Shown: positions 7,270 to 18,384 of the stretch, one piece after another | Layout of the letters: every line of letters begins with the position of its first letter | How positions within the stretch are numbered: position 1 is the first letter of the stretch | Virus record (IMG/VR): IMGVR_UViG_3300020171_000131 | Location: 1 to 24,286 of that record | Origin: a virus | Reading direction: 5' to 3' (one strand) | DNA length: 24,286 nucleotides | Notes under the pieces: generated by a model | Told to the model about the DNA's origin: nothing | Database searches by the model: none | What the model saw: only the letters and a program-made list of their open reading frames with translations | Position numbers and translations under genes: made by a program

Positions 7270-7776
7270 ATGAAAATATCGAAACTTAAAAAGTTCAAGG
7301 GAAACCCAAGGCGCATGACTGAAAAACAATTCAGCCTGCTGAAGGAACATATTGAAAAACTCGGCGATCTTTCAGGAGTAATCTACTGTGTCAACAACAA
7401 GGCTTACGTCGGCGGCAATCAGCGCAGCGAAATATTTGACGGCTGCGAGATTGTGATTACTGAAAGATTCGATGAACCGACGGCATTGAAAACACTGGCG
7501 CACGGGTATATTGTTTATCAGGGTGAAAAGTACACTTACAGGGAAGTATCATTCACCGAGGAAGAGTTTAAGCAGGCTTGCATTGTTGCGAATAATGACG
7601 GTGGTACGTTTGACTGGGATATCCTGGCTAATCAGTGGGATGAACTTAAACTGGTTGAATGGGGTATGGATGTGCCGGATATGTTTGAAAAAATTCCAGA
7701 TGATAATGAAAATATTGATGAAAAAGGAATGGAAAATACTCAAAATGAATGTCCAAAATGTGGATTCAAATGGTAA
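7270..7776 (+). CDS. ParB/Srx-fold protein, partner of a cytosine methyltransferase
   Basis: The 168-aa protein carries the ParB N-terminal-like (ParB/sulfiredoxin) pattern: a GNPRR box at residues 11-15 and GGNQR at 48-52. A C-terminal block DWDILANQWDELKLVEWG (115-132) is typical of phage ParB-like proteins associated with DNA methylases. The end is CPKCGFKW (161-168), half a zinc ribbon. Members of this fold can have nuclease, NTPase or protein-interaction roles. It is not a plasmid partition protein: there is no HTH domain and no ParA. The start follows AAGGAA and is coupled to the 10-codon leader. Its last 32 nt overlap the methyltransferase gene. A paralogue lies at 11883-12401. Confidence 0.8.
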   Translation: MKISKLKKFKGNPRRMTEKQFSLLKEHIEKLGDLSGVIYCVNNKAYVGGNQRSEIFDGCEIVITERFDEPTALKTLAHGYIVYQGEKYTYREVSFTEEEFKQACIVANNDGGTFDWDILANQWDELKLVEWGMDVPDMFEKIPDDNENIDEKGMENTQNECPKCGFKW

Positions 7777-8734
7777 TAATTTGACTGTTATCAGTACATT
7801 CGCAGGCTGCGGAGGCTCAAGTCTTGGCTATAAATTAGCCGGATATAAAGAATTGTTGGCCGTTGAATGGGATAATAATGCTGTTGAAACATTCAAACTT
7901 AATTTTCCGGATGTTCCGGTATATCATGGAGATATAACAAAATTAACTGGAAAAGAATGTATGCGATTGGCCGGAACAAAAATTGGTGAACTTGATGTTT
8001 TAGATGGATCTCCGCCATGTCAGGGTTTCAGCACAGCCGGGAAAAGGAAATTTGACGATCCCCGTAATTCATTATTCAAAGAATATGCACGTATTTTGAA
8101 GGAATTGCAACCAAAGGTATTTGTTATGGAAAATGTAACAGGCATGATAAAGGGTGTTATGAAACAAGCATATTTGCAGATTATTAAAACTTTGCGAGAA
8201 TGTGGATATAGAGCAAATGGCCAGGTAATGAATGCTATGTATTATAATGTTCCGCAAAGCAGACAACGGATTATCATTATTGGTGTTCGCAATGATTTGA
8301 ATATTGAACCAAGTCATCCAAAACCGCAAACAAAACCGATTCCCATACAAAAAATTATAGGACATTTAGAAAATCAAGGAGGCCCCAAATTAACCGCTTG
8401 CAGTTCTAAATATTGGCCGTTATTAAAATATGGTGAAAGTGCTTCAAAATATCATCCAAAAGGTCATTTATTTGGCATGATAAAACTCAATCCATTCAAA
8501 CCGTCTCCAACTATATTAAAATCATGCGGCAATCCCGTTTGTCACTGGAGTCAACCACGATTTTTATCCAAAAAAGAATTACTACTGATAACCTCATTCC
8601 CCGAAAATTTTATTATTATAGGAGAAATTGGAAAGGTTAGAGATAGAATAGGCAACAGTGTTCCACCAAATCTCATGAAAGCCATTGCTGAACACATTAA
8701 AAATAATATATTGATTCAAAGGAATAAACAATGA
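7745..8734 (+). CDS. DNA (cytosine-5-)-methyltransferase
   Basis: The 329-aa protein contains the ordered motifs of C5-cytosine methyltransferases: motif I TFAGCGGSSLGYKLAG (about 18-33, AdoMet binding) and motif IV DGSPPCQGFS with catalytic Cys92. Motif VI is VMENVTG (127-133), motif VIII QSRQR (171-175) and motif X RIGNSVPPN (301-309). Length matches a complete enzyme, with a short target-recognition region (about 215-270). The start at 7745 overlaps the ParB-like gene by 32 nt; the long open frame upstream is a shadow of that gene. No restriction endonuclease is nearby, so it is an orphan methylase, probably protecting phage DNA or marking it for regulation. The recognition site cannot be read from sequence. 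Confidence 0.95.
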   Translation: MNVQNVDSNGNNLTVISTFAGCGGSSLGYKLAGYKELLAVEWDNNAVETFKLNFPDVPVYHGDITKLTGKECMRLAGTKIGELDVLDGSPPCQGFSTAGKRKFDDPRNSLFKEYARILKELQPKVFVMENVTGMIKGVMKQAYLQIIKTLRECGYRANGQVMNAMYYNVPQSRQRIIIIGVRNDLNIEPSHPKPQTKPIPIQKIIGHLENQGGPKLTACSSKYWPLLKYGESASKYHPKGHLFGMIKLNPFKPSPTILKSCGNPVCHWSQPRFLSKKELLLITSFPENFIIIGEIGKVRDRIGNSVPPNLMKAIAEHIKNNILIQRNKQ

Positions 8735-8874
8735 TAATAAAAAATGATTACGATATTAAATTGATTCAACATGAATATTTTGAATTATACCGGAATAGAT
8801 ATAATCTTGATGAAATGGAAGAAAAAAGATATCAGGAAATATCTGATGCTATCTGGCATTATCGCAATAAATAA
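8731..8874 (+). CDS. Hypothetical protein, 47 aa
   Basis: ATGA-coupled to the methyltransferase, behind AAAGGAA. The protein is tyrosine-rich and helical (EYFELYRNRYNLDEMEEKRY). It belongs to the same insert bounded by the 24-nt repeats and may be a small partner of the methyltransferase. The family is not recognised. The 70 nt after it hold only the ribosome binding site of the next gene. Confidence 0.6.
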   Translation: MIIKNDYDIKLIQHEYFELYRNRYNLDEMEEKRYQEISDAIWHYRNK

Positions 8875-8943
8875 TATACAAATGACATAAATAAGAAACA
8901 TTATTTTGTTATCTGTGAATAAAAAAGGAATAGGTGGAATATC

Positions 8944-8967
8944 AATGTTAAACAAGGCAAAAGGGAA
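8944..8967 (+). repeat. 24-nt direct repeat, right copy
   Basis: Identical to 7240-7263 and containing the functional start of the DUF5131 gene at 8945. The interval between repeat starts is 1704 nt and holds the ParB-like, methyltransferase and 47-aa genes. Upstream sequence differs from the left copy, and a new weaker site (AGGTGG) precedes this ATG. Confidence 0.85.
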
Positions 8968-9610
8968 TATGTACGATTTTGTAACTCATACATGGAATCC
9001 AATAAAAGGAAAATGTCAGCACGGATGCTCATATTGCTACATGTCCAAATGGGGAAAACAGAACCCGGTAAGATTCGATGAAAAAGAACTGAAAACCGAT
9101 CTTGGAAACGGAAACTTCATCTTTGTGGGATCTTCCTGCGATATGTTCGCTGAGGATATCCCGGCGGAATGGATAATCAAAACATTGGACTACTGTAACA
9201 TGTTTGATAATCATTATCTGTTTCAGTCAAAGAACCCGGGAAGATTCCTTGATTTCAAAGATCATACAGTATACAGAAAATCGGTATTCTGCACAACGAT
9301 TGAAAGCAATGTCTATTATCCGGAGATTATGAATAATTCACCGAATTTGATTTATAGAGCATGTTTTATAAGACAAATGTCAGAAATAGCAAAGGTTTAT
9401 GTCACCATTGAGCCTGTAATGAAGTTTGTTCCTGACAGTTTTGTAGAATTGATAAAACTATGCAATGCTGAACAAGTTAACATCGGAGCTGATTCCGGCG
9501 GCAATCACTTGCCGGAGCCGACTTCAGACGAATTGAAGCAGCTTATTTGCAGGTTTGAATTATTCACGAAGGTTAAGATCAAGAAAAATCTTGGAAGGCT
9601 GTTGAGGTGA
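8945..9610 (+). CDS. Phage Gp37/Gp68-like protein (DUF5131), radical-SAM-like
   Basis: The 221-aa protein begins near the DUF5131 signature THTWNPIKGKCQHGCSYCYM (residues 14-33). It holds a CxxxCxxC triad (Cys24, Cys28, Cys31) like the [4Fe-4S] motif of radical SAM enzymes. Later blocks FVGSSCDMFAEDIP, LFQSKNPGRF and VTIEPVMKF are also typical of this phage family. No reaction has been assigned to the family that I know of, but the cluster motif implies radical or redox chemistry. The start at 8945 sits in the right 24-nt repeat; the same start at 7241 has a stronger ribosome site but is cut off. Neighbours include methylation and SLOG genes, so a role in nucleotide modification is possible. 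Confidence 0.85.
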   Translation: MLNKAKGNMYDFVTHTWNPIKGKCQHGCSYCYMSKWGKQNPVRFDEKELKTDLGNGNFIFVGSSCDMFAEDIPAEWIIKTLDYCNMFDNHYLFQSKNPGRFLDFKDHTVYRKSVFCTTIESNVYYPEIMNNSPNLIYRACFIRQMSEIAKVYVTIEPVMKFVPDSFVELIKLCNAEQVNIGADSGGNHLPEPTSDELKQLICRFELFTKVKIKKNLGRLLR

Positions 9611-9619
9611 TAAAACAAA

Positions 9620-10108
9620 ATGAATTTCGATAGTCGCACATATTTAAAGGGAAATATCAGGAAATTTTCAATAGGTGTATTTGGTTCAAGAACATTAAAA
9701 GATGAAAGAGTGGAGATAATTATCACTGAAAAGATAAAAGAATTGAATGGAACAAAAATAATAACAACGCAAGAACCGCAAGGGGTATGTGAAGTGGCAC
9801 AAATGATAGCCAAGAAATATGCCTATCCGCTTCAGTTACATTTCTTAAATATGCAATATCTCAGGGGCGCCTTTGAACAAAGAAGCAAGGAAGTAATAAG
9901 CGAATCAGATTATATTATTTTGATCCATGACGGCAAAAGCAAAGGTACTGCAAATGAATTGAAATTAGTAATAAAAAGTGGGAAACCCTATCATTATGAA
10001 GTATTGGAGATTACACAATATAACAGAAGTGTAGGTTTTAATATAACGGAAGATTGGGGAAAAGATTTTGATATACTGCCGGATTTTGGAGATGGTTTTA
10101 AAATTTGA
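9620..10108 (+). CDS. SLOG/DUF2493-like nucleotide-binding protein
   Basis: The 162-aa protein has a Rossmann-like first strand ending in GVFGSRTLKDERV (about 19-31). A strand ITTQEPQGVCEVAQMIAKKY follows, with a GVxE-like loop. The distal motif SDYIILIHDGKSKGTANELKL (about 95-115) closes the set. This order matches the SLOG superfamily (DUF2493/YspA, DprA and LOG relatives), which binds nucleotides or nucleotide-derived ligands. It lies 9 nt after the DUF5131 gene, suggesting a shared task. It may sense or process a modified nucleotide, but this is inference. Last gene before promoter P2. Confidence 0.75.
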   Translation: MNFDSRTYLKGNIRKFSIGVFGSRTLKDERVEIIITEKIKELNGTKIITTQEPQGVCEVAQMIAKKYAYPLQLHFLNMQYLRGAFEQRSKEVISESDYIILIHDGKSKGTANELKLVIKSGKPYHYEVLEITQYNRSVGFNITEDWGKDFDILPDFGDGFKI

Positions 10109-10112
10109 ATTA

Positions 10113-10141
10113 TTTACATAATTCTCTCTGTGTGGTATAAT
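10113..10141 (+). promoter_or_regulatory. Strong extended -10 promoter P2
   Basis: TTTACA (10113-10118), a 17-nt spacer and consensus TATAAT (10136-10141), preceded by TGG as an extended -10. The predicted start (about 10147-10149) falls at the first helix of the leader RNA, so the transcript would begin with that structure. Confidence 0.85.
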
Positions 10142-10144
10142 GGA

Positions 10145-10226
10145 ATTGCGAGGTATTCGGGTCGCTCCCGAAGCAGGTTGGGTGCCGTAATCACTTGGCC
10201 GCCTCGCAATCACCTATTACGGAGGG
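10145..10226 (+). promoter_or_regulatory. Three-way-junction leader RNA with loop able to mask the ribosome binding site
   Basis: The leader of the replication gene folds into three helices. P1 is ATTGCGAGG (10145-10153) with CCTCGCAAT (10202-10210), nine perfect pairs. P2 is TTCGGG/CCCGAA (10156-10161, 10167-10172) with a TCGCT loop. P3 is GGTTGGGTG (10176-10184) with CACTTGGCC (10192-10200), including four wobbles and a 7-nt loop CCGTAAT (10185-10191). That loop is the exact complement of ATTACGG at 10216-10222, which overlaps the GGAGGG site (10221-10226) for the ATG at 10232. A loop-to-ribosome-site pseudoknot would block translation. No named riboswitch class matches by eye. Confidence 0.7.
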
Positions 10227-10231
10227 AAATT

Positions 10232-10966
10232 ATGTCAAATATCGATTCAAAAAAGTTCATTCAGAAAAACCCGATTTTCAAAAGGGGCTACGGTATTGTA
10301 GCAAAAGAAGTTATGGAAGATGATAGACTGACTATCGAAGCAAAGGCAATATATTGCTATTTATGTTCTTATGCCGGAACAAAATTTATATGTTTCCCAA
10401 GCATAAAAATGATTCAAGACAAGCTGAAAATATCAGAAAAAAGATTCTATAGACATATCGATTTGTTAAAGGAATACGGGTATATTACGATTGACAGAGA
10501 AAGCCGAAAAGGCAAGTTCCAAAAGAACTATTACACAATAATAACTGCTCCAGTCCGTCAAAACGCAGTACTGCAAAATGAAGGCTTGCAAAATGCAGGA
10601 CTGCAAAACGGTGGAACTAATATTAACAGTCTCAAAAGTAACAACCTTAATAATAACACTCTTGAAAGTAACATGAATAAAGAGTCATACATCAGTCTCG
10701 AAGATTCGACTGACGACTATGTTATTGAATATCTGAATCAATATAAAAGAAAATACAGGAAAGAACATCATTGGGTCACTATAGAGCAATTTGACAGAAT
10801 AGAATCTGCTTTATCGGATCTGAGGGGAAACGGCGATGTAGATATTGAATGTTATGAAGAGGGGGTTGCAGAATATCTTGATAATATACCAGACACAAAT
10901 AACGGATCAATGCTTTGCTTCATAACTGTGTTTGGCAGGATATATGAATATAATAATGCTTATTGA
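10232..10966 (+). CDS. Phage/plasmid replication initiator (HTH N-terminal domain)
   Basis: The 244-aa protein has the N-terminal domain common to initiators of low-GC Gram-positive phages and plasmids: FKRGYGIVAKEVMEDDRLTI, then EAKAIYCYLCSYAG, then a winged-helix part (FPSIKMIQDKLKISEKRFYRHIDLLKEYGYI). A flexible middle encoded by 15-bp DNA repeats reads LQN-x-GLQN-x-G. The C-terminal half (about 160-244) is a separate helical domain that could recruit helicase. The start at 10232 follows GGAGGG; the frame is open further upstream through the leader RNA, but no start site supports that. Translation is probably controlled by the leader. Such proteins bind an origin, which is often inside the gene. 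Confidence 0.85.
   Translation: MSNIDSKKFIQKNPIFKRGYGIVAKEVMEDDRLTIEAKAIYCYLCSYAGTKFICFPSIKMIQDKLKISEKRFYRHIDLLKEYGYITIDRESRKGKFQKNYYTIITAPVRQNAVLQNEGLQNAGLQNGGTNINSLKSNNLNNNTLESNMNKESYISLEDSTDDYVIEYLNQYKRKYRKEHHWVTIEQFDRIESALSDLRGNGDVDIECYEEGVAEYLDNIPDTNNGSMLCFITVFGRIYEYNNAY
10556..10615 (+). repeat. Four tandem 15-bp repeats inside the initiator gene (candidate origin)
   Basis: Units at 10556, 10571, 10586 and 10601 share a core (C/T)TGCAAAA(T/C)G followed by A/C-AGG-like bases; the first is divergent (CGTCAAAACGCAGTA). They encode LQN-x-G. An AT-rich stretch follows (about 10616-10680). Iterons within an initiator gene beside AT-rich DNA are the layout of lambda O and of several Gram-positive phage origins. 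Confidence 0.6.
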
Positions 10967-10985
10967 ATAAAAGGAGGATCAAGAT

Positions 10986-11180
10986 ATGGATAGTAAAATT
11001 ATTGGTTATGCCATAAGATTTAATGAGATGGATAGTAACGGTGATATTATTAAAAGGGAAGCCGTAAACCCGGAGATTTTTGAACAGTTGAAGATTTCCG
11101 GGAATATCATTGATTATGAAATTGATGAAAATGGAGTTAAAATAATAAAAAAGTTTGATTTGAAAAGCGTTTCTATATAA
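10986..11180 (+). CDS. Miniprotein resembling the start of an HK97 prohead protease, 64 aa
   Basis: It starts after AGGAGG. The N-terminus KIIGYAIRFNEMDSNGDIIK has the look of the first strand and turn of HK97-type prohead proteases (GYA, then F-x-x-x-D-x-x-G). The phage's own protease at 18396 has IRGYASPEFDDNGKKVI in the corresponding place. No catalytic His or Ser region follows: the rest is a short beta-like segment (DYEIDENGVKIIKKFDLKSVSI). It could be a truncated relic, a regulator, or an independent family with chance similarity. It lies between replication and structural genes. Confidence 0.6.
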   Translation: MDSKIIGYAIRFNEMDSNGDIIKREAVNPEIFEQLKISGNIIDYEIDENGVKIIKKFDLKSVSI

Positions 11181-11209
11181 TTTATAAAAAAAACGAAGGA
11201 GTTAGTAAA

Positions 11210-11419
11210 ATGAACAAGATACCGAAAATAGACTATTCAATATCAGACAGATTCAAAGACATCGATTTTATCGAGATCAGGAAACGAACGGAAGAGGAAA
11301 TTAAAAAGGCTTTTATGCCATCAGAAAACATCTCAGAAAAAGAAGATGCTATTGCTGTGATACATAAAAACATGATGGCAGCAGAATATATGAAACGTTT
11401 TAATGGAGGAAGTAAATGA
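11210..11419 (+). CDS. Portal-fragment-like miniprotein, 69 aa
   Basis: It starts after AAGGAG. Residues 6-24 (KIDYSISDRFKDIDFIEIR) closely match residues 298-316 of this window's own portal (KIDQSIVDRFKDIDFIQLR). The underlying DNA is also similar: 11225-11281 against 15634 onward, differing mostly at third positions. The remainder (EEEIKKAFMPSENISEKEDA, then AAEYMKRF) is helical and loosely follows portal layout. It is far too short to be a portal. It may be a duplicated fragment retained as a small gene or a competitor of portal assembly; only the similarity is observed. Confidence 0.65.
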   Translation: MNKIPKIDYSISDRFKDIDFIEIRKRTEEEIKKAFMPSENISEKEDAIAVIHKNMMAAEYMKRFNGGSK

Positions 11420-11444
11420 ATGAAATACCCCCAAGGAGAATGTT

Positions 11445-11702
11445 ATGAATAATATGATAATAAAAAAAGAATGGTCAGAATTTAGAGATACTGGCTTTTT
11501 GTGTTTCGTCAATTTGATACTCCATGTATTTGGATGGGCAATCGTATTAGAAATCGATGAGAATAATAATGTAATTTCGGCATATCCATCCAGAGTGAGA
11601 TTCCGGGGTTTTGATTCCAAAAATATATCAAAAACTTATATCAATATAAGCGAATACATGAAAGAAAATGCAGAAATATTATTAAAAGAAAGCAAAGAAT
11701 GA
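11445..11702 (+). CDS. Conserved hypothetical phage protein, 85 aa
   Basis: It starts after AAGGAG. The sequence IIKKEWSEFRDTGFLCFVN, ILHVFGWAIVLEIDENNNV, YPSRVRFRGFD and a helical end ISEYMKENAEILLKES is a pattern I associate with a hypothetical protein family recurring in phages of Firmicutes; it has no established role. Beta-rich centre, no signal or membrane segment. It is the last gene before the terminator at 11756-11788. Confidence 0.7.
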   Translation: MNNMIIKKEWSEFRDTGFLCFVNLILHVFGWAIVLEIDENNNVISAYPSRVRFRGFDSKNISKTYINISEYMKENAEILLKESKE

Positions 11703-11755
11703 ATTAAAACAAAACAAATGATGTGATTTAAATCTCAATCTCAATCCCAAATCAA

Positions 11756-11788
11756 ATCCGATATCTTTCAGGTGTCGGATATTTTTTT
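11756..11788 (+). terminator. Intrinsic terminator
   Basis: ATCCGATATC (11756-11765) pairs with GGTGTCGGAT (11771-11780) through ten pairs, two of them G-T, around loop TTTCA. A run of seven T follows (11782-11788). It separates the replication operon from the Mom operon. Confidence 0.9.
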
Positions 11789-11799
11789 ATCCCAAGTAA

Positions 11800-11827
11800 T
11801 TGACATTAAATTTCTTTATGGTATGAT
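11800..11827 (+). promoter_or_regulatory. Sigma-70-type promoter P3
   Basis: TTGACA (11800-11805), a 16-nt spacer and TATGAT (11822-11827). It lies directly after the terminator and before the second ParB-like gene. Operator-like repeats overlap the spacer and -10, implying tight control of the ParB-like/Mom pair. Confidence 0.75.
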
Positions 11828-11868
11828 AAAGAGTAGCTACTTTCTTTATGAGTAGCAAATTTCTTTAT
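11811..11868 (+). repeat. Operator-like direct and inverted repeats around P3
   Basis: TTTCTTTAT occurs at 11811, 11841 and 11860, the first two followed by G. GAGTAGC occurs at 11831 and 11850. TCTTTAT (11813-11819) and ATAAAGA (11826-11832) form a perfect 7-bp inverted repeat around GGTATG that covers the -10. GTAGCTAC (11833-11840) is palindromic. A further inverted partial copy, TAAAGAAA, lies at 11887-11894. The arrangement fits binding sites for a dimeric repressor. Confidence 0.6.
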
Positions 11869-11882
11869 ACTTTGTAAAATGG

Positions 11883-12401
11883 ATGGTAAAGAAATTGTCG
11901 AAGTTGCCGGAAATCAGGAATAAAATGGAAATGATTGATATCAAATCAATCAAACTTAATCCGGATAATCCAAGACTTATCAGGGACGATAAATATAAAA
12001 AACTTGTTCAGTCAATTAAAGACTTTCCACAGATGTTAGAAATAAGGCCGATAGTCGTTAATTCAGACATGATAATCCTGGGCGGCAATATGAGGCTTAA
12101 GGCTTGCCAGGAAGCTGGATTAAAGCAGATACTGATTATTAAAGCCGATGATCTTACGGAAGAACAGCAGAAAGAATTTATAATCAAAGACAATGTTGCC
12201 TTTGGAGAATGGGACTGGGATATCCTGGCCAATCAATGGGATGAACTTAAATTAGTTGAATGGGGACTGGATATTGAGAATAATAATTTTGATCCTGGAA
12301 ATGAATTTGAGCAAGGACAATTGGATGAATTAGAACCTAAAATAATAATCTGCCCACATTGTAATAAAGAAATAAATTTAAGAGATATGAATGATGTCTG
12401 A
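11883..12401 (+). CDS. ParB/Srx-fold protein, partner of Mom
   Basis: The 172-aa protein is a second ParB N-terminal-like protein: NPDNPR at residues 26-31, GGNMRLKAC at 67-75, IKDNVAFGEW then DWDILANQWDELKLVEWG (111-128), and a C-terminal CPHC (157-160). It shares the DWDILANQWDELKLVEWG block and the cysteine half-ribbon with the protein at 7270-7776, but elsewhere the two differ. The start is uncertain: 11883 gives the longest form without a ribosome site, while the in-frame ATG at 11925 has AGGAA 4 nt upstream and may be the true one. The last 11 nt overlap the Mom gene. It may guide or license modification, as inferred from pairing alone. Confidence 0.8.
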   Translation: MVKKLSKLPEIRNKMEMIDIKSIKLNPDNPRLIRDDKYKKLVQSIKDFPQMLEIRPIVVNSDMIILGGNMRLKACQEAGLKQILIIKADDLTEEQQKEFIIKDNVAFGEWDWDILANQWDELKLVEWGLDIENNNFDPGNEFEQGQLDELEPKIIICPHCNKEINLRDMNDV

Positions 12402-13062
12402 AAGACCAATATTAAAACTTGATTGGTGTACTCATAAAGCTGCTAAATATGCTTGCGAAAATTGGCATTATAGTGAATCTATTCCGGTTGGAAAACTTGT
12501 AAAAATCGGGGTTTGGGAAGACGATAAATTTATAGGAGTAGTTATATTTGGAAGGGGAGCAAATAGAAGTCTGTTGTCACCTTATAGATTAAAACAAGAT
12601 GAGGGTTGTGAATTGGTAAGAATAGCATTAAAAGAACATAGGAATGAAGTAACTAAAATTGTAAAGATAGCAATTGATTTATTGAAAAAATTATGCAATA
12701 AATTATTGTTGATTATTTCATTTGCAGATGATGGACAGGGACACATCGGGAGCATTTATCAAGGCGGAAATTGGATTTATACAGGATATATTAAACAAAA
12801 AAGCAAGGCAATATATAAAGGGAAAATCGCACATAGAAGAACTTTTGATGCAGCGGGAATAAAAGGTTATGAATCAATGGATGCTCATAAAAAATATAGA
12901 TATTTAATGCCATTAACGAAAGAAATGAGAGATAAAGTTATACATCTTAAAAAAGATTATCCTAAGCGTCCGAAACAAGCGATGGATACGACCAGTATCA
13001 CAGCGGCGGGGCAGTACCGACCCGGACGCTCCATAAATCAAATGGAAACGATAAATGCCTAA
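12391..13062 (+). CDS. mom: Mom-family adenine modification enzyme
   Basis: The 223-aa protein matches the Mom family of phage Mu type, GNAT-fold enzymes that convert adenine in DNA to an N6-modified (acetamido/carbamoylmethyl-type) base and so block many restriction enzymes. Blocks in order are NWHYSESIPVGKLVKIGVWE (24-43), FIGVVIFGRGAN (47-58), CELVRIAL (73-80) and SFADDGQGHIGSIYQGGNWIYTG (110-132). A basic tail KDYPKRPKQA follows. The start is MM at 12391/12394, inside the end of the ParB-like gene. The regulated promoter P3 is consistent with the need to restrain Mom, which is toxic in Mu. Host recognition and exact chemistry are inferred from family membership. Confidence 0.9.
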   Translation: MMSERPILKLDWCTHKAAKYACENWHYSESIPVGKLVKIGVWEDDKFIGVVIFGRGANRSLLSPYRLKQDEGCELVRIALKEHRNEVTKIVKIAIDLLKKLCNKLLLIISFADDGQGHIGSIYQGGNWIYTGYIKQKSKAIYKGKIAHRRTFDAAGIKGYESMDAHKKYRYLMPLTKEMRDKVIHLKKDYPKRPKQAMDTTSITAAGQYRPGRSINQMETINA

Positions 13063-13477
13063 ATCCAACAAACCTAAAACTGATAAACAATCGAAAACCA
13101 AGCCGATAAAGCGGTCACCTAAATTTACGAAAATAGACATATTAAAAAGGGCTTTGATAGAGGCGTTAGAAAAACATCTCGGAATTGTTACATCTGCCTG
13201 TAAAACCGCAGGATGCTGCCGAGAAACATTTTACATATATTACAGAGAAGATCCAGAATTTAAAAAAAGAGTTGATTCTATCGGCGAAATGGCTCTTGAC
13301 TTTGCAGAATCGCACTTACATAAACAGATTCAGGACGATAACCCCACATCAACGATATTCTACTTGAAATGCAAAGGTAAGCATCGGGGCTATTATGAAA
13401 AGCAGGAAATTGAAATCACTGATCGCAAAATCGAAATAAACGTCATAAAACCGGATGACCTGAAAGATGATAAATAA
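13055..13477 (+). CDS. terS: Terminase small subunit
   Basis: The 140-aa protein has a basic N-terminus (KPKTDKQSKTKPIKRS) and a helix-turn-helix (IVTSACKTAGCCRETFYIYYREDPEFKKRV, about 44-73). The C-terminal stretch LHKQIQDDNPTSTIFYLKCKGKHRGYYEKQEI is characteristic of phBC6A51-type small terminases. Small terminase recognises the packaging site and regulates the large subunit. It overlaps the Mom gene by 8 nt and the large-subunit gene by 11 nt, the canonical gene order for packaging. The cut-site type (cos or pac) cannot be told from this. Confidence 0.88.
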   Translation: MPKSNKPKTDKQSKTKPIKRSPKFTKIDILKRALIEALEKHLGIVTSACKTAGCCRETFYIYYREDPEFKKRVDSIGEMALDFAESHLHKQIQDDNPTSTIFYLKCKGKHRGYYEKQEIEITDRKIEINVIKPDDLKDDK

Positions 13478-14762
13478 ATGGATATGGGCTATAATCATGG
13501 CAGTAACCTTTAATCTGACGGTTGATCTGTCAAACCTGCGTTCTATAACTAACGATAGGTATTATCAGTTGTACAAATGCAAATCATTATATATGCTGCT
13601 ATACGGCGGAGCAAGTTCCGGGAAGTCTGTATTTATAGCGGATAAATTCACGTTCAGGATATTGACAGAACAGCATCAGAAGTTCTTATACCTCAGAAAG
13701 ATAGGCGCATCATGCCGCGATTCTGTGTTCAGAGAGGCTATAAAGTCAGCAGAGAAATTCGGACTTGTAAAAAACAAAGACTTTTTTGTAAATGAAACCC
13801 GGCTTGAAATCAGTTTCCCGACATTTGATTCAACGATATATTGCCGCGGCTTGGATGATCCAGAAAAGATAAAATCAATCGAAGGCATTACAAGCATGTG
13901 GCTTGAAGAAGTTACAGAGTTCTTGCGGGACGATAAAGAAATATTATCGCTCAGGATGCGGGGTATTAAAGACACATACGAACAAACAATATATTCCTGC
14001 AATCCGATAAACATCAGCCATTACGTTAAAACTGACATGGTAGATCAGCATCCACAACCCGATCCTGATTTTATGATAATGCATTCGACATATAAAGATA
14101 ACAGATTCCTGACAGCAAGCGATATCAAAAAGATAGAATCAAAGACAGGCTATCATTATGAAGTTTATACCCTCGGCAAATGGGGCGTTATAGGCAAACC
14201 GGTATATCCTGACTACAGCGTTGAGAATATCTGCCAAGACTCATTTCAGTACGATAATTGCAGTTTTGGCACAGACTTTGGATTCACTCATGCAAATGTA
14301 AAACTTCTTACAGCACGGGACGAAAAAGGCGATCAGTTCATCTTGAAAGAAGTATCAGGCGAAGGATGGACGAATCAGGAGTTTATAGAACGAAGTCAGG
14401 AAACATTCAGCCAAGGCGAAATAGATACGATCCCGGATTATTGCGATTCACAGGCACCTGATAAAATAGTTGAGTTCAGACGGGCGGGATTCAGATCAGT
14501 CGGAGTTGAAAAATACGCCGGCTCGGTAGTATCCGGGATAGATTATCTGAAAGCCCGGCACACTTATATTCATCCTTCCTGTATCAGAACGATATCTGAA
14601 ATACAGCAATACCAGCATGCTAAGAACAAACACGGAATATACTCCGAAAAGCCGGTTGAAGTATATGACGATGCTATGGCCGCAAATCGGTACTCGATAG
14701 ATAAGCTGAAGAAAAAACGCAGAGATGGAGAAAGGAAGCTATATGCCGTTACAAATTCCTAA
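13467..14762 (+). CDS. terL: Terminase large subunit (PBSX/Terminase_3 type)
   Basis: The ATPase domain has Walker A GGASSGKS (47-54 from the 13467 start) and Walker B MWLEEVTEF (144-152). The C-terminal RNase H-like nuclease has GTDFGF (268-273), YCDSQAPDKI (325-334) and DDAMAANRYS (401-410), supplying the acidic metal ligands. It pumps DNA into the prohead and cuts concatemers. Length (about 421-431 aa) is normal. The start at 13467 adds a hydrophobic MINKWIWAII; the in-frame ATG at 13497 (MAVTFNLTVD) is likely the biological start. Neither has a strong ribosome site, so coupling to the small subunit is expected. Confidence 0.95.
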   Translation: MINKWIWAIIMAVTFNLTVDLSNLRSITNDRYYQLYKCKSLYMLLYGGASSGKSVFIADKFTFRILTEQHQKFLYLRKIGASCRDSVFREAIKSAEKFGLVKNKDFFVNETRLEISFPTFDSTIYCRGLDDPEKIKSIEGITSMWLEEVTEFLRDDKEILSLRMRGIKDTYEQTIYSCNPINISHYVKTDMVDQHPQPDPDFMIMHSTYKDNRFLTASDIKKIESKTGYHYEVYTLGKWGVIGKPVYPDYSVENICQDSFQYDNCSFGTDFGFTHANVKLLTARDEKGDQFILKEVSGEGWTNQEFIERSQETFSQGEIDTIPDYCDSQAPDKIVEFRRAGFRSVGVEKYAGSVVSGIDYLKARHTYIHPSCIRTISEIQQYQHAKNKHGIYSEKPVEVYDDAMAANRYSIDKLKKKRRDGERKLYAVTNS

Positions 14763-17700
14763 GTCAAATATATCATCAATCGAAGAAGCCAGGGCACGTC
14801 TGCTGCAAGAAAAGCAGGCCGGCTTAGAGAACGACTCCGGAGAAATGAAGAAATACAAGCCGAATAAATATACATACGTTCAGGACTATGAGAATCAGCT
14901 ACAAACATCCTGGTATTCGATGGTCAGGAATAAAGACATATATGACTACGACTCATTCTTTTACGCCATATCGAAGCATCCGGCGGTATATGCCGTAGTC
15001 AACAAGATAGTTGAAAATATGTTCAAGGGCGGCTATGAAATAGTGCCACGTAAAGGCATTAAGCATCCTTCCGAGAAACAAAGGGCGATGCTGGAAGCCT
15101 ATCTTGCAAATGTCCATCCCGATGGCTACACTTTCATGGAAATAATGAAAGATGCCTGGACAGACTGCCTGCCGTGCGGAACGAAGTTAGTCCAGATAGA
15201 TGAAAAATATCCCTACCTGTACGGCAATCTTGATTTCGGAACCTTCAGGCCGAACATAAACGAATATGGCCTGTTTAATGAAGGCTGGAAGTGGGAACAG
15301 ATAATCCTTGGCCAGGTAGTAGCACAATTATTTCAGGGTCAATATATCTGGTATCGGCTCCCCGGCAAGCATATTTTGATATATCCAAGATCCCCGCTTG
15401 AGCCGCTTCTTACCGGGATTGAAACAGACTTGTTCGGCAAACTGTTCAACAAAAACAGATTCACAAATTCAAGCTCATTTGGCAATATATTCATACTTCC
15501 GGAAAATTCAGACAGCATGGACGCAAAAACATTGAAAGCATATATTGAACAGAACTATGTTTCGCAGTCCGATTCATTCGGTGAACTAACGACAGATAAT
15601 TCATATAAAAATCTTGTGCTTTACAACGGCGCAAAGATAGATCAATCAATCGTAGACAGATTCAAGGATATAGACTTCATTCAACTTCGCAGCGTAACAA
15701 TAAAAGATGTCTGTATGTGCTTTGATATGCCGCTCAGGGTGATGAGCATAGAGGAATCAGGATTAGGACAGGCCGGTGCAAACGATGCAGCTATGAGTCA
15801 ATTTTACGGTGATCTGATTATTCCACAGCAGACTATGTGGGAAGATCAGACGGATGCTCAGTTGACGTTGGGGCGGCTTGAATGTACAGACTGGCGGATT
15901 CAGCTTATACGGCCAAAATGGATTAACGAGGAAAAGTTTACTAATCTCGCTATAAGCCTGAAGGAAAAAGGCGTACAGACAGCAGATGAAGCTAGATTCA
16001 TGCTAAAAGATTTATATTCACACCTTGGCTACGGCAAGAACAATGGCATTGAACTTCAGGACTGGGAAAATATCGCAGTTTCAGAACTGACACAGGATAA
16101 AGTATTAAATGGTGCGCAGGTACAAAGCGCAATAAATATAGTTACCTTGGTTGCACAAGGCGTTATGCCGAAAGATGCAGCTTTGGGTCAACTGATGGTT
16201 ATGTTCAATTTAACGGAAGAACAAGCCAAAAAAATATTAGGCTCTATAAAAAGCAGCGCGACAACCCAGAAGTCATGCGGTCATAACCACAAAAAACTAA
16301 TCGAAGATAATAACATCCCTGAAAACATCAGGCAGGCAGCAGAGAAGGCGCGTAAGGCTTGGAATTACAGGATGGTTGAATCAGACTTGAACGAAGGTGA
16401 AAATGCGATACAGACTGAATTTGACGCTATATCCGATAAAATGTTCGCAGACGCGAAAAAACAGGCATCATTGGCTTGGAAATCACCGGATAATCAGATT
16501 ATGTTTACTTTCAAGCTGAAATATAAGGCTGATCTGGATTCATTACTCAGGATTGAATCAGCCAAGATATTTGACTCCGGACGCAAAGATGTTGATTCAC
16601 AGATGGGTAAAAGATCATGTCGCAAGGCCGATCTTGATACTCTGAACAAATATAAGCAGTTAGTCAAGAAGGAATCAAAGCAGGCCTCCGAGGATTGGTA
16701 CATCAGACTTGAGAAGGAAATGAATATAATTTACAACTCAGCCATCGCTCAGAAACTATCTGAGAATCAGCTTATTAAAAAGATGTCTGATAGATTCGAT
16801 GTCCTGAGAAATTCTTCACCTGCAATAGTCCGCACAATGACAACAGGATTTTATAACTTGGGCCGGGCCGAAATGATGTATGAAGTAGGTGACTTTGTTG
16901 AGTATGTCCAGTTCAGCGCGATTATGGACGATAGGACGACAGAACGATGCGAACGACTCGATGGAGACATCATGCGAAAAGATTCTGATTTTGAGAAGAT
17001 TATGCCGCCGTTGCATTATAATTGTTTCATAGACGGGCAAACTGCAATCTATACATCAAAGGGATGGGAGCAAATAAAAAATATAGAGTTGGGCGATTTA
17101 ATATTAACTCACAAAGGGAAATTCAAACCAGCAACCTTTATTCATCATAAGAAAAATCCTACAAGCTATGACGGCGATGTCATAAAAATAACGATTAAAA
17201 TGAAGAAAAGAAATGCAAAAGGATTCTGTGAAAACTTTATCACGACAACCCTGGATCATCCTTTTTTAACTCAGCGTGGTTGGGTCAAGGCCTGTGAATT
17301 GAATAAAAATGACAAACTCAATACCTTGGCGTTTAAATGTAAAGAATGTGGTGAAGTAATGCCTTGGAGACCGTGGGGTTATTGTATAGAAAATATGGAA
17401 ATGCCAAAATATTGTTCAGGTGAATGCGCAATGAAAAACAATGTTGCCACAAAATGGTCAGATGAAAGGAAAAAGAAACAATCAAAAATGACAACGCTGC
17501 AATTAAAAAGAGAATATGATTGTGGTATAAGAAGCGGAAGCGAAATAACTAAAAAAGCACATGAAAAAACAAAAGAAATGGCCGCAAAAGGAGAACATCC
17601 ATTTCAAAAAACAGAAGTACGAAAATATGCATTAAAAAAAAGAATGGAAAGTGAAAAATGGAAATTGGCAAATGAAGCAAAAAGAGGAGAAAATAATGTA

Positions 17701-18384
17701 ATGCATCGTCCGGAAGTGGCCAAAAAAAGTGGAGAATCACAAAAAATATATTGGTTAAATAATCCAGAAAAACATTCAAACAGGAAAATGGGTCTTGCGA
17801 TCATGAAAGGACAAATGGGATATATTTCAAAGGGACAACGTTCATTATATGACATTCTGAAAAAAATATTTCCAAATGCAGAATTAGAATATCCTGTTAA
17901 ATTAAATGGAAAACTCTATTATCTGGATATAGCAATTCCGGAACATAAAATAAACTTCGAATTTGATGGTTCATACTGGCACAATAAACCGGGTTGTAAG
18001 GAAAAAGATATAGAAAGAGATTTAAATTTATCTAAAGACGGTTGGAATGTTATCAGATATGTAGATCACGTTCCGGCAAAAGATAGTATTTATGAAGAAG
18101 TGTCAAGAATTATGGCAAATCATAATGATGAATACTGTTTTTCAGAAGTAGATATAGAAAAAATAGAAAGATGGAAATTAAAAAAGGCAAGAAGATTATA
18201 TAATATTTCTGTACAGGATGATGAAAGTTATATCGCAAAGGGATTTGTAGTTCATAACTGTCGCAGTATACTACTTCCAATAACTCAGGAAGACGTAAAA
18301 GAGAACAAAAAACTATCCGAAACTACACCGGATAAAGAAATCAATAAAATATTAAATGACACAGCCGGATTCGATAGGCTGTAA
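14743..18384 (+). CDS. Portal-MuF fusion protein interrupted by an intein
   Basis: The 1213-aa precursor starts at 14743, behind AAAGGAA; the ATG at 14725 lies in the terminase gene. Residues 1 to about 500 are a phage portal, the dodecameric DNA channel (markers: NKIVENMFKGGYEIVP, RFKDIDFIQLR, ESGLGQAGANDA). After a Cys/His linker (KSCGHNHKK) comes a Mu gpF-type head morphogenesis domain ending with DDRTTERCERLDGDIM and PPLHYN/CRSILLPI. The MuF core is cut at Asn760/Cys761 by a 412-residue intein (761-1172). Splicing would give an 801-aa portal-MuF protein. Portal and MuF are usually separate neighbouring genes; fusions occur in some phages. The intein stretch is visibly more A-rich than the flanks, suggesting recent arrival. 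Confidence 0.93.
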   Translation: MPLQIPKSNISSIEEARARLLQEKQAGLENDSGEMKKYKPNKYTYVQDYENQLQTSWYSMVRNKDIYDYDSFFYAISKHPAVYAVVNKIVENMFKGGYEIVPRKGIKHPSEKQRAMLEAYLANVHPDGYTFMEIMKDAWTDCLPCGTKLVQIDEKYPYLYGNLDFGTFRPNINEYGLFNEGWKWEQIILGQVVAQLFQGQYIWYRLPGKHILIYPRSPLEPLLTGIETDLFGKLFNKNRFTNSSSFGNIFILPENSDSMDAKTLKAYIEQNYVSQSDSFGELTTDNSYKNLVLYNGAKIDQSIVDRFKDIDFIQLRSVTIKDVCMCFDMPLRVMSIEESGLGQAGANDAAMSQFYGDLIIPQQTMWEDQTDAQLTLGRLECTDWRIQLIRPKWINEEKFTNLAISLKEKGVQTADEARFMLKDLYSHLGYGKNNGIELQDWENIAVSELTQDKVLNGAQVQSAINIVTLVAQGVMPKDAALGQLMVMFNLTEEQAKKILGSIKSSATTQKSCGHNHKKLIEDNNIPENIRQAAEKARKAWNYRMVESDLNEGENAIQTEFDAISDKMFADAKKQASLAWKSPDNQIMFTFKLKYKADLDSLLRIESAKIFDSGRKDVDSQMGKRSCRKADLDTLNKYKQLVKKESKQASEDWYIRLEKEMNIIYNSAIAQKLSENQLIKKMSDRFDVLRNSSPAIVRTMTTGFYNLGRAEMMYEVGDFVEYVQFSAIMDDRTTERCERLDGDIMRKDSDFEKIMPPLHYNCFIDGQTAIYTSKGWEQIKNIELGDLILTHKGKFKPATFIHHKKNPTSYDGDVIKITIKMKKRNAKGFCENFITTTLDHPFLTQRGWVKACELNKNDKLNTLAFKCKECGEVMPWRPWGYCIENMEMPKYCSGECAMKNNVATKWSDERKKKQSKMTTLQLKREYDCGIRSGSEITKKAHEKTKEMAAKGEHPFQKTEVRKYALKKRMESEKWKLANEAKRGENNVMHRPEVAKKSGESQKIYWLNNPEKHSNRKMGLAIMKGQMGYISKGQRSLYDILKKIFPNAELEYPVKLNGKLYYLDIAIPEHKINFEFDGSYWHNKPGCKEKDIERDLNLSKDGWNVIRYVDHVPAKDSIYEEVSRIMANHNDEYCFSEVDIEKIERWKLKKARRLYNISVQDDESYIAKGFVVHNCRSILLPITQEDVKENKKLSETTPDKEINKILNDTAGFDRL
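17023..18258 (+). other. Intein with Vsr/EDxHD-like homing endonuclease
   Basis: The insert starts with Cys (CFIDGQTAIYTSKGWEQIKN), has a block B (TTLDHPFLTQRGWVKACEL), and ends VVHN followed by an extein Cys. These are Cys1, the conserved TxxH and the His-Asn/Cys splice junction of a class 1 intein. Between the Hint halves lie a treble-clef-like segment (CKECGEVMP, YCSGECAMKNN), basic NUMOD3-like repeats and a nuclease core. The core has KGQRSLYDILKKIFP, LYYLDIAIPEHKINFEFDG, SYWH and DLNLSKDGWNVIRYVD, a pattern of Vsr-like (PD-(D/E)XK-related) homing enzymes rather than LAGLIDADG. All splicing residues appear intact. Confidence 0.92.

Follow-up and report, generated by a model that had tools for sequence, protein, structure and literature searches.

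The window analyzed here, a 24,286-base IMG/VR virus contig (IMGVR_UViG_3300020171_000131), encodes two ParB-like proteins, ParB1 (168 aa) and ParB2 (172 aa), each followed by an overlapping gene for a DNA modification enzyme of a different type (Table 1). The partner of ParB1 is a C5-cytosine DNA methyltransferase of the S-adenosylmethionine (SAM) type, with an overlap of 32 nt from the likely ATG at 7745 or 17 nt from an alternative GTG at 7760; the partner of ParB2 is a Mom-family enzyme, with an overlap of 11 nt. Gene starts were taken as the first in-frame start codon, and these overlaps may be overstated. Together with their relatives, hundreds of which are likewise encoded immediately ahead of a DNA-modifying enzyme, the two proteins prove to be mosaics, in which an interchangeable ParB-CTPase core is joined to a partner-specific C-terminal tail of ∼40 residues.

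Both overlaps had been called in an original prediction made from the sequence, and both enzyme assignments stand: the first combines a PF00145 match with the PPC motif and motif X, and the second scores 136 bits with PF25680 (cut-off 27.1). Its claim that both ParB-like proteins end in CPxC was also correct (ECPKCGFKW in ParB1 and IICPHCNKEINLRDMNDV in ParB2). Neither is a ParB-methyltransferase fusion, as the enzymes lie on separate, overlapping genes. The window C5 enzyme was considered as a CmoX C5-carboxymethyltransferase, and this was ruled out because its motif X reads RIGNSVPP, with Asn where CmoX enzymes have Arg (the HhaI Asn304 position).

Both proteins have the fold of the ParB N-domain. 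At the sequence level PF02195 matches ParB2 and gave no match to ParB1, which was placed as a ParB by PHROG profiles, by alignment with its relatives (A2), the profile of which matches ParB chains, and from secondary structure in the predicted model. The ParB2 model shows a confident core, a drop in the predicted local distance difference test score (pLDDT) at residues 131 to 150 (the linker) and a rise at 151 to 170 (the CPxC hairpin). Structural comparison of this model, which covers residues 4 to 126 well, matches the core to CTP- and CDP-bound ParB with Z scores of 12 to 13 (PDB ID: 7bnr, over 89 residues). Three residues of the nucleotide pocket correspond in position to those of canonical ParB, namely Gly and the last Arg in GxxR and Asn in the EN motif: in alignment A1 Gly68 is invariant and Asp103-Asn104 is conserved at ≥90%, the last Arg of GGNMR/AGHGR matches GERR in CTP-bound ParB, and Asp replaces the Glu of EN. 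Because the core matches nucleotide-bound ParB and these pocket residues line up, nucleoside triphosphate (NTP) binding by ParB1 and ParB2 is plausible. The helix-turn-helix and C-terminal dimerization domains of canonical ParABS ParB are missing: TIGR00180 gives 30.7 bits, below its cut-off of 58.45, and the proteins stop ∼40 residues past the core.

Table 1. Coordinates of the two ParB–enzyme pairs and of nearby features in the window
Feature	Position	Strand	Basis
ParB1, ParB-CTPase-fold core with C5-type tail	7270..7776	+	Open reading frame (ORF); PHROG 498/620; A2 profile vs ParB structures; model pLDDT 89
Block DWDILANQWDELKLVEWG in ParB1	7612..7665	+	49/54 nt same as in ParB2; 5/5 changes synonymous
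Putative C5-type adapter tail IPDDNENIDEKGMENTQNECPKCGFKW of ParB1	7693..7773	+	Resembles tails of C5-paired ParB proteins
C5-cytosine DNA methyltransferase, SAM type (Asn in motif X)	7745..8734	+	PF00145 E 4e-70; motifs DGSPPCQGFS, RIGNSVPP
ParB2, ParB-CTPase-fold core with Mom-type tail	11883..12401	+	PF02195 E 4.6e-9; model core pLDDT mostly >90; Z 13.0 to ParB-CTPgammaS 7bnr
Block DWDILANQWDELKLVEWG in ParB2	12213..12266	+	Amino acids identical to ParB1 block
Putative Mom-type adapter tail NFDPGNEFEQGQLDELEPKIIICPHCNKEINLRDMNDV, flexible linker then ordered CPxC hairpin	12285..12398	+	CxxC in 65/66 Mom-class ParB proteins; ParB2 model pLDDT profile
Mom-family DNA modification enzyme	12391..13062	+	PF25680 E 1.6e-39; phrog_1384
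Terminator-like hairpin 5' of ParB2 unit	11756..11780	+	Consensus match only
Promoter-like site TTGACA-16-TATGAT (11/12 consensus bases) upstream of ParB2	11800..11827	+	Consensus match only
Terminase small subunit	13055..13477	+	phrog_309/4044; 8-nt overlap with mom
Terminase large subunit (TerL)	13467..14762	+	PF04466 E 6e-38

Association of ParB-like genes with DNA modification enzymes

Genomic neighborhoods were surveyed among the nearest 80 matches per query, on contigs that overlap in origin, with partner classes assigned by profiles built in this analysis. A search by ParB sequence alone supplied the 80 best viral relatives of ParB2, and the fused or next-downstream gene was scanned with Pfam. 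In 63 of these 80 the ParB is fused to or directly precedes a recognized DNA modification enzyme (37 N6/N4 methyltransferase fusions, 15 TET-associated glycosyltransferases, 7 Mom and 4 C5 enzymes), and in six further relatives the gene scanned encodes an ABC-ATPase/GNAT protein. The same was true of only one of 80 control genes, drawn at random, one per locus, from positions >1.5 kb from ParB on the pooled contigs of all three surveys (Fisher p 4e-27, which overstates independence as close relatives were kept in both sets). Two more surveys, started from other ParB cores and scored with local profiles, gave 78/79 and 77/81 fused or adjacent to a modification enzyme; their queries came from modification loci, so that they speak to breadth and not to an independent rate. 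A lack of association beyond chance, named in advance as counting against the original prediction, is thus not what the neighborhood survey found. A single type of ParB core goes with modification chemistries of many unrelated kinds, and gene context and architecture support the original suggestion of a general partner.

The order is equally regular when viewed from the enzymes. ParB lies upstream in 80/80 of the nearest viral Mom loci, mostly overlapping and sometimes 130 to 190 nt away, and in 21 of 22 usable Mom loci of bacterial genomes, which range from Yersinia to Paenibacillus and Planctomycetota. These ParB genes mostly overlap or adjoin the Mom gene; in one of the 21 (L395) the ParB reading frame is broken. 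The isolated phages phiEf11, Martha and Appa (Microbacterium phage; ParB-like gp46, Mom gp47) have the same ParB-then-Mom order, with a small gene in between in Martha. Nearly every C5 relative that has Asn in motif X and for which upstream sequence is available follows an ORF ending in a C5-type CPxC tail; in three of these ORFs the core is missed or split by the ParB profiles. The ParB1 family was collected via the C5 gene, a single-protein pattern search of viral contigs with ParB1 having returned no relatives. The GR-type (CmoX-type, Arg) relatives form a group apart and for the most part have no ParB next to them: it was absent in seven such loci, and PaBG (Arg) has one.

Three arrangements within these loci were seen in passing. 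A tandem pair of ParB-like genes precedes a single Mom gene at L378:324-1294, with the Mom-type tail on the second only. An ABC-ATPase/GNAT protein (phrog_11143) at L045:1860-2942 and its relatives lie beside a ParB with its own tail type and are candidate DNA-modifying enzymes. For one ParB–C5 pair, the middle of the C5 gene is inverted in L208 and L209, with PF00145 segments on opposite strands, and lies on one strand in L200; this stretch is possibly an invertible segment.

Parts of this association are on record. ParB-methyltransferase fusions are known (PMC3459991), and one of them, BCE_0392 of Bacillus cereus, makes N6-methyladenine in E. coli; such phage and prophage fusions (phrog_498) share the ParB core family and its position N-terminal to the modifying enzyme, whereas in the window the enzyme has a separate gene, is of C5 or Mom type, and is matched by a CPxC tail that fusions lack. 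ParBc genes near CmoX-type enzymes likewise place ParB beside a C5-type enzyme, in a role stated in 2025 as unknown (PMC12783734); the window enzyme differs in being of the SAM type, and the available portion of that paper does not describe tails. The Dehalococcoides ssrA islands list ParBc and a Mom homolog in one integration module, in the portion available as annotation only (PMC3146451). The ParB-CTPase-fold orphan proteins of Kaljevic et al. 2025 (PMC12704722) are similar in fold, GxxR, mobile-element context and methyltransferase fusions; that survey treats domain fusions, and Mom, separate partner genes (except ParA) and partner-matched tails do not appear in its available portion. In the com-mom operon of phage Mu, a small gene for a CxxC protein also overlaps a Mom-family gene, but Com lacks a ParB core, whereas the window Mom pairs with ParB; homology of Com to the Mom-type tail was not established, the likeness being one of gene position and CPxC knuckle.

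Partner-matched tails and interchangeable cores

Tails and cores were compared in 131 ParB proteins, non-redundant at 85% identity, with the last 40 residues taken as the tail and the remainder as the core. The nearest neighbor by tail gives the correct partner class for 129 proteins and the nearest neighbor by core for 89, against a mean of 46.5 with shuffled labels. When tail neighbors were restricted to proteins with cores <40% identical, 121/131 were still assigned correctly; core neighbors with tails <40% identical gave 50/131. In the alignment, ParB cores from quite different subfamilies carry the same tail when the partner is the same. Swapping is also visible in DNA: the ParB genes of L302 (C5), L299 (Mom), L314 (glycosyltransferase) and L306 (fused methyltransferase) are ∼80 to 90% identical over their first 420 bases and then lose similarity, with the breakpoint at codon ∼140 (∼420 nt).

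The tails fall into types that follow the partner. CxxC is present in the tail of 65/66 Mom-paired and 38/40 C5-paired proteins (103/106 together) and in 0/25 other standalone ParB proteins, and the tails found with glycosyltransferase and GNAT-ABC partners are other short modules without it. Among 119 fusions, CxxC occurs between ParB and enzyme in two: covalent fusion and zinc-knuckle tail exclude each other. A divergent Mom-class subfamily (L033, and L398 and L399 from Bacteroidota genomes) has a distinct tail. The tail class is kept without gene overlap in seven non-redundant cases, with gaps of 63 to 217 nt. In the literature on these proteins, as far as the portions available go, we found no earlier account of a partner-matched tail code, although earlier remarks on gene neighborhoods may exist.

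The original prediction had placed its emphasis elsewhere, on an 18-residue core block, DWDILANQWDELKLVEWG, kept by ParB1 and ParB2. The identity of the block in the two proteins is real, but the evidence moves the weight from this shared core block to the partner-specific tail. As a family signature the block was dropped, regular-expression counts showing that most Mom- and C5-paired ParB proteins lack its exact form; what they have in common is the CPxC tail. Within the window, the 60 nt on either side of the block agree at 27/60 and 24/60 positions, and because the block DNA is near-identical and its flanks are not, the pattern suits local gene conversion or a recent exchange between the two copies.

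Surroundings of the two pairs in the window

The promoter-like site and the terminator-like hairpin upstream of it, both pattern matches, suggest that ParB2 opens its own transcription unit. AATTTCTTTAT motifs are repeated at 11808-11896, around the promoter-like site and the ParB2 start, and may form an operator. Beyond mom, the gene for the small terminase subunit overlaps that for the large subunit, and a portal/SPP1-gp7-like protein (14725-18384) has an intein splicing motif at its C-terminal side (TIGR01443), so that an intein probably interrupts the gp7 domain. The C5 gene is followed by DUF5131 radical-SAM-like and SLOG-like genes (8906-10108), relatives of which were absent from the loci collected by then. 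Two ParB–enzyme pairs on one contig look unusual: 37 of 38 virus records with Mom or C5 have exactly one match to the A2 profile, and one has two.

A proposed ParB carrier with an enzyme-specific tail

We propose that the ParB-like protein of each pair acts as the DNA-holding part of a modification module made of two genes, in which an NTP-gated ParB clamp keeps the enzyme on DNA through an enzyme-specific tail, and put the probability of this reading at roughly 0.6. The core, which has a ParB/NTP-binding fold but not the parS-reading and dimerization domains that usually go with it, would hold or slide on DNA under NTP control, and the C-terminal tail would be an adapter that docks one class of modification enzyme, as a CPxC zinc-knuckle for Mom and most C5 methyltransferases and as other short modules for glycosyltransferases and GNAT-ABC proteins. 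The ParB-methyltransferase fusions of many relatives would be the same link made covalent. Retention of the enzyme on its substrate could then lead to wide modification of the phage genome. A carrier with an enzyme-matched adapter would explain the association, the mutual exclusion of tail and fusion, and the conservation of the tail without gene overlap. In a published survey of ParB-fold proteins (PMC12704722), 11 of 28 purified proteins bound NTP, with differing nucleotides, and other ParB-fold fusions bind CTP, ATP or GTP via GxxR.

Several points weigh against this proposal. In that survey 17 of the 28 proteins bound no NTP. A lone CxxC supplies only two zinc ligands, so zinc binding by the tail would need a dimer or residues of the partner. 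Mom homologs without ParB exist, phage Mu using Com, and no ParB lies just upstream of Mom in Listeria A511, Enterococcus AS-M1 or Crossiella (L392). Contact between tail and enzyme, NTP binding by the core and an influence on modification are steps that we infer. The tail segment is, moreover, physically linked to the enzyme gene, and linkage could explain part of the tail–partner correlation.

Taken further, linkage might account for the whole correlation: the tail would be the upstream end of an enzyme cassette, and recombination within the conserved ParB core would swap cores with no functional contact. The sharp breakpoint and the usual gene overlap fit this account. An unselected tail would decay, however, and the tail motifs are conserved in protein across diverse partners, including at the gapped loci and with the intervening gene of Martha; the tail is also absent from fused enzymes, and the near-constant presence of ParB as the upstream gene is left unexplained by a recombination cassette. 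We consider hitch-hiking of this kind unlikely. Equally improbable, in our estimate, is control like that of Com, in which the CPxC finger or overlapping translation would switch on translation of the enzyme gene in cis on the mRNA. Mu com encodes a CxxC protein annotated as a translational regulator of Mom, and the ParB tail has the same position and knuckle, but persistence of the tail without overlap or across an intervening gene, the protein-level link of the methyltransferase fusions, and the tails of several partner classes that lack CxxC do not fit a role on the message.

We give a similarly low weight to ParB being a nuclease or nickase of replication or packaging, with the adjoining enzyme protecting or marking its DNA. 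Nicking-associated concatenation was reported for BCE_0392 (PMC3459991), mom in the window leads into terminase genes, and in loci with enough sequence TerL lies within 3.5 kb downstream in 22/24 fused and 38/89 Mom loci. The ParB1–C5 pair and many other C5 loci are away from terminase, however (18/44 beside it), and neither the partner-specific tails nor fusion to the modifying enzyme itself would be explained. Least probable of all is restraint of enzyme expression or activity until late infection, as by DndB for the dnd genes, since, although DndB is a ParB-like NTP-binding repressor (described in PMC12704722) and ParB2 appears by pattern match to head its own transcription unit, no helix-turn-helix was seen in the ParB-like proteins and covalent fusion to active methyltransferases favors assistance over repression.

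The role of ParB domains next to DNA methyltransferases of phages was described as an open question in 2025 (PMC12783734). The proposed carrier would answer it in a form that can be tested, and carries the answer over to Mom and glycosyltransferases. If the tails dock enzymes, swapping a segment of ∼40 residues should redirect an enzyme to a given ParB carrier. We regard as attractive, though slightly short of an even chance, the broader possibility that one NTP-gated ParB clamp, re-equipped by tail swaps, brings five or more unrelated chemistries to DNA, and that new DNA-modifying enzymes could be predicted from the tail type as from a code. Such a code would flag the GNAT-ABC protein phrog_11143 and FkbM-like and 3'-phosphoadenosine-5'-phosphosulfate (PAPS)-reductase-like neighbors as candidate DNA-modifying enzymes, and, if tails do dock enzymes, tail type would mark undiscovered enzymes of this kind in viral metagenomes.

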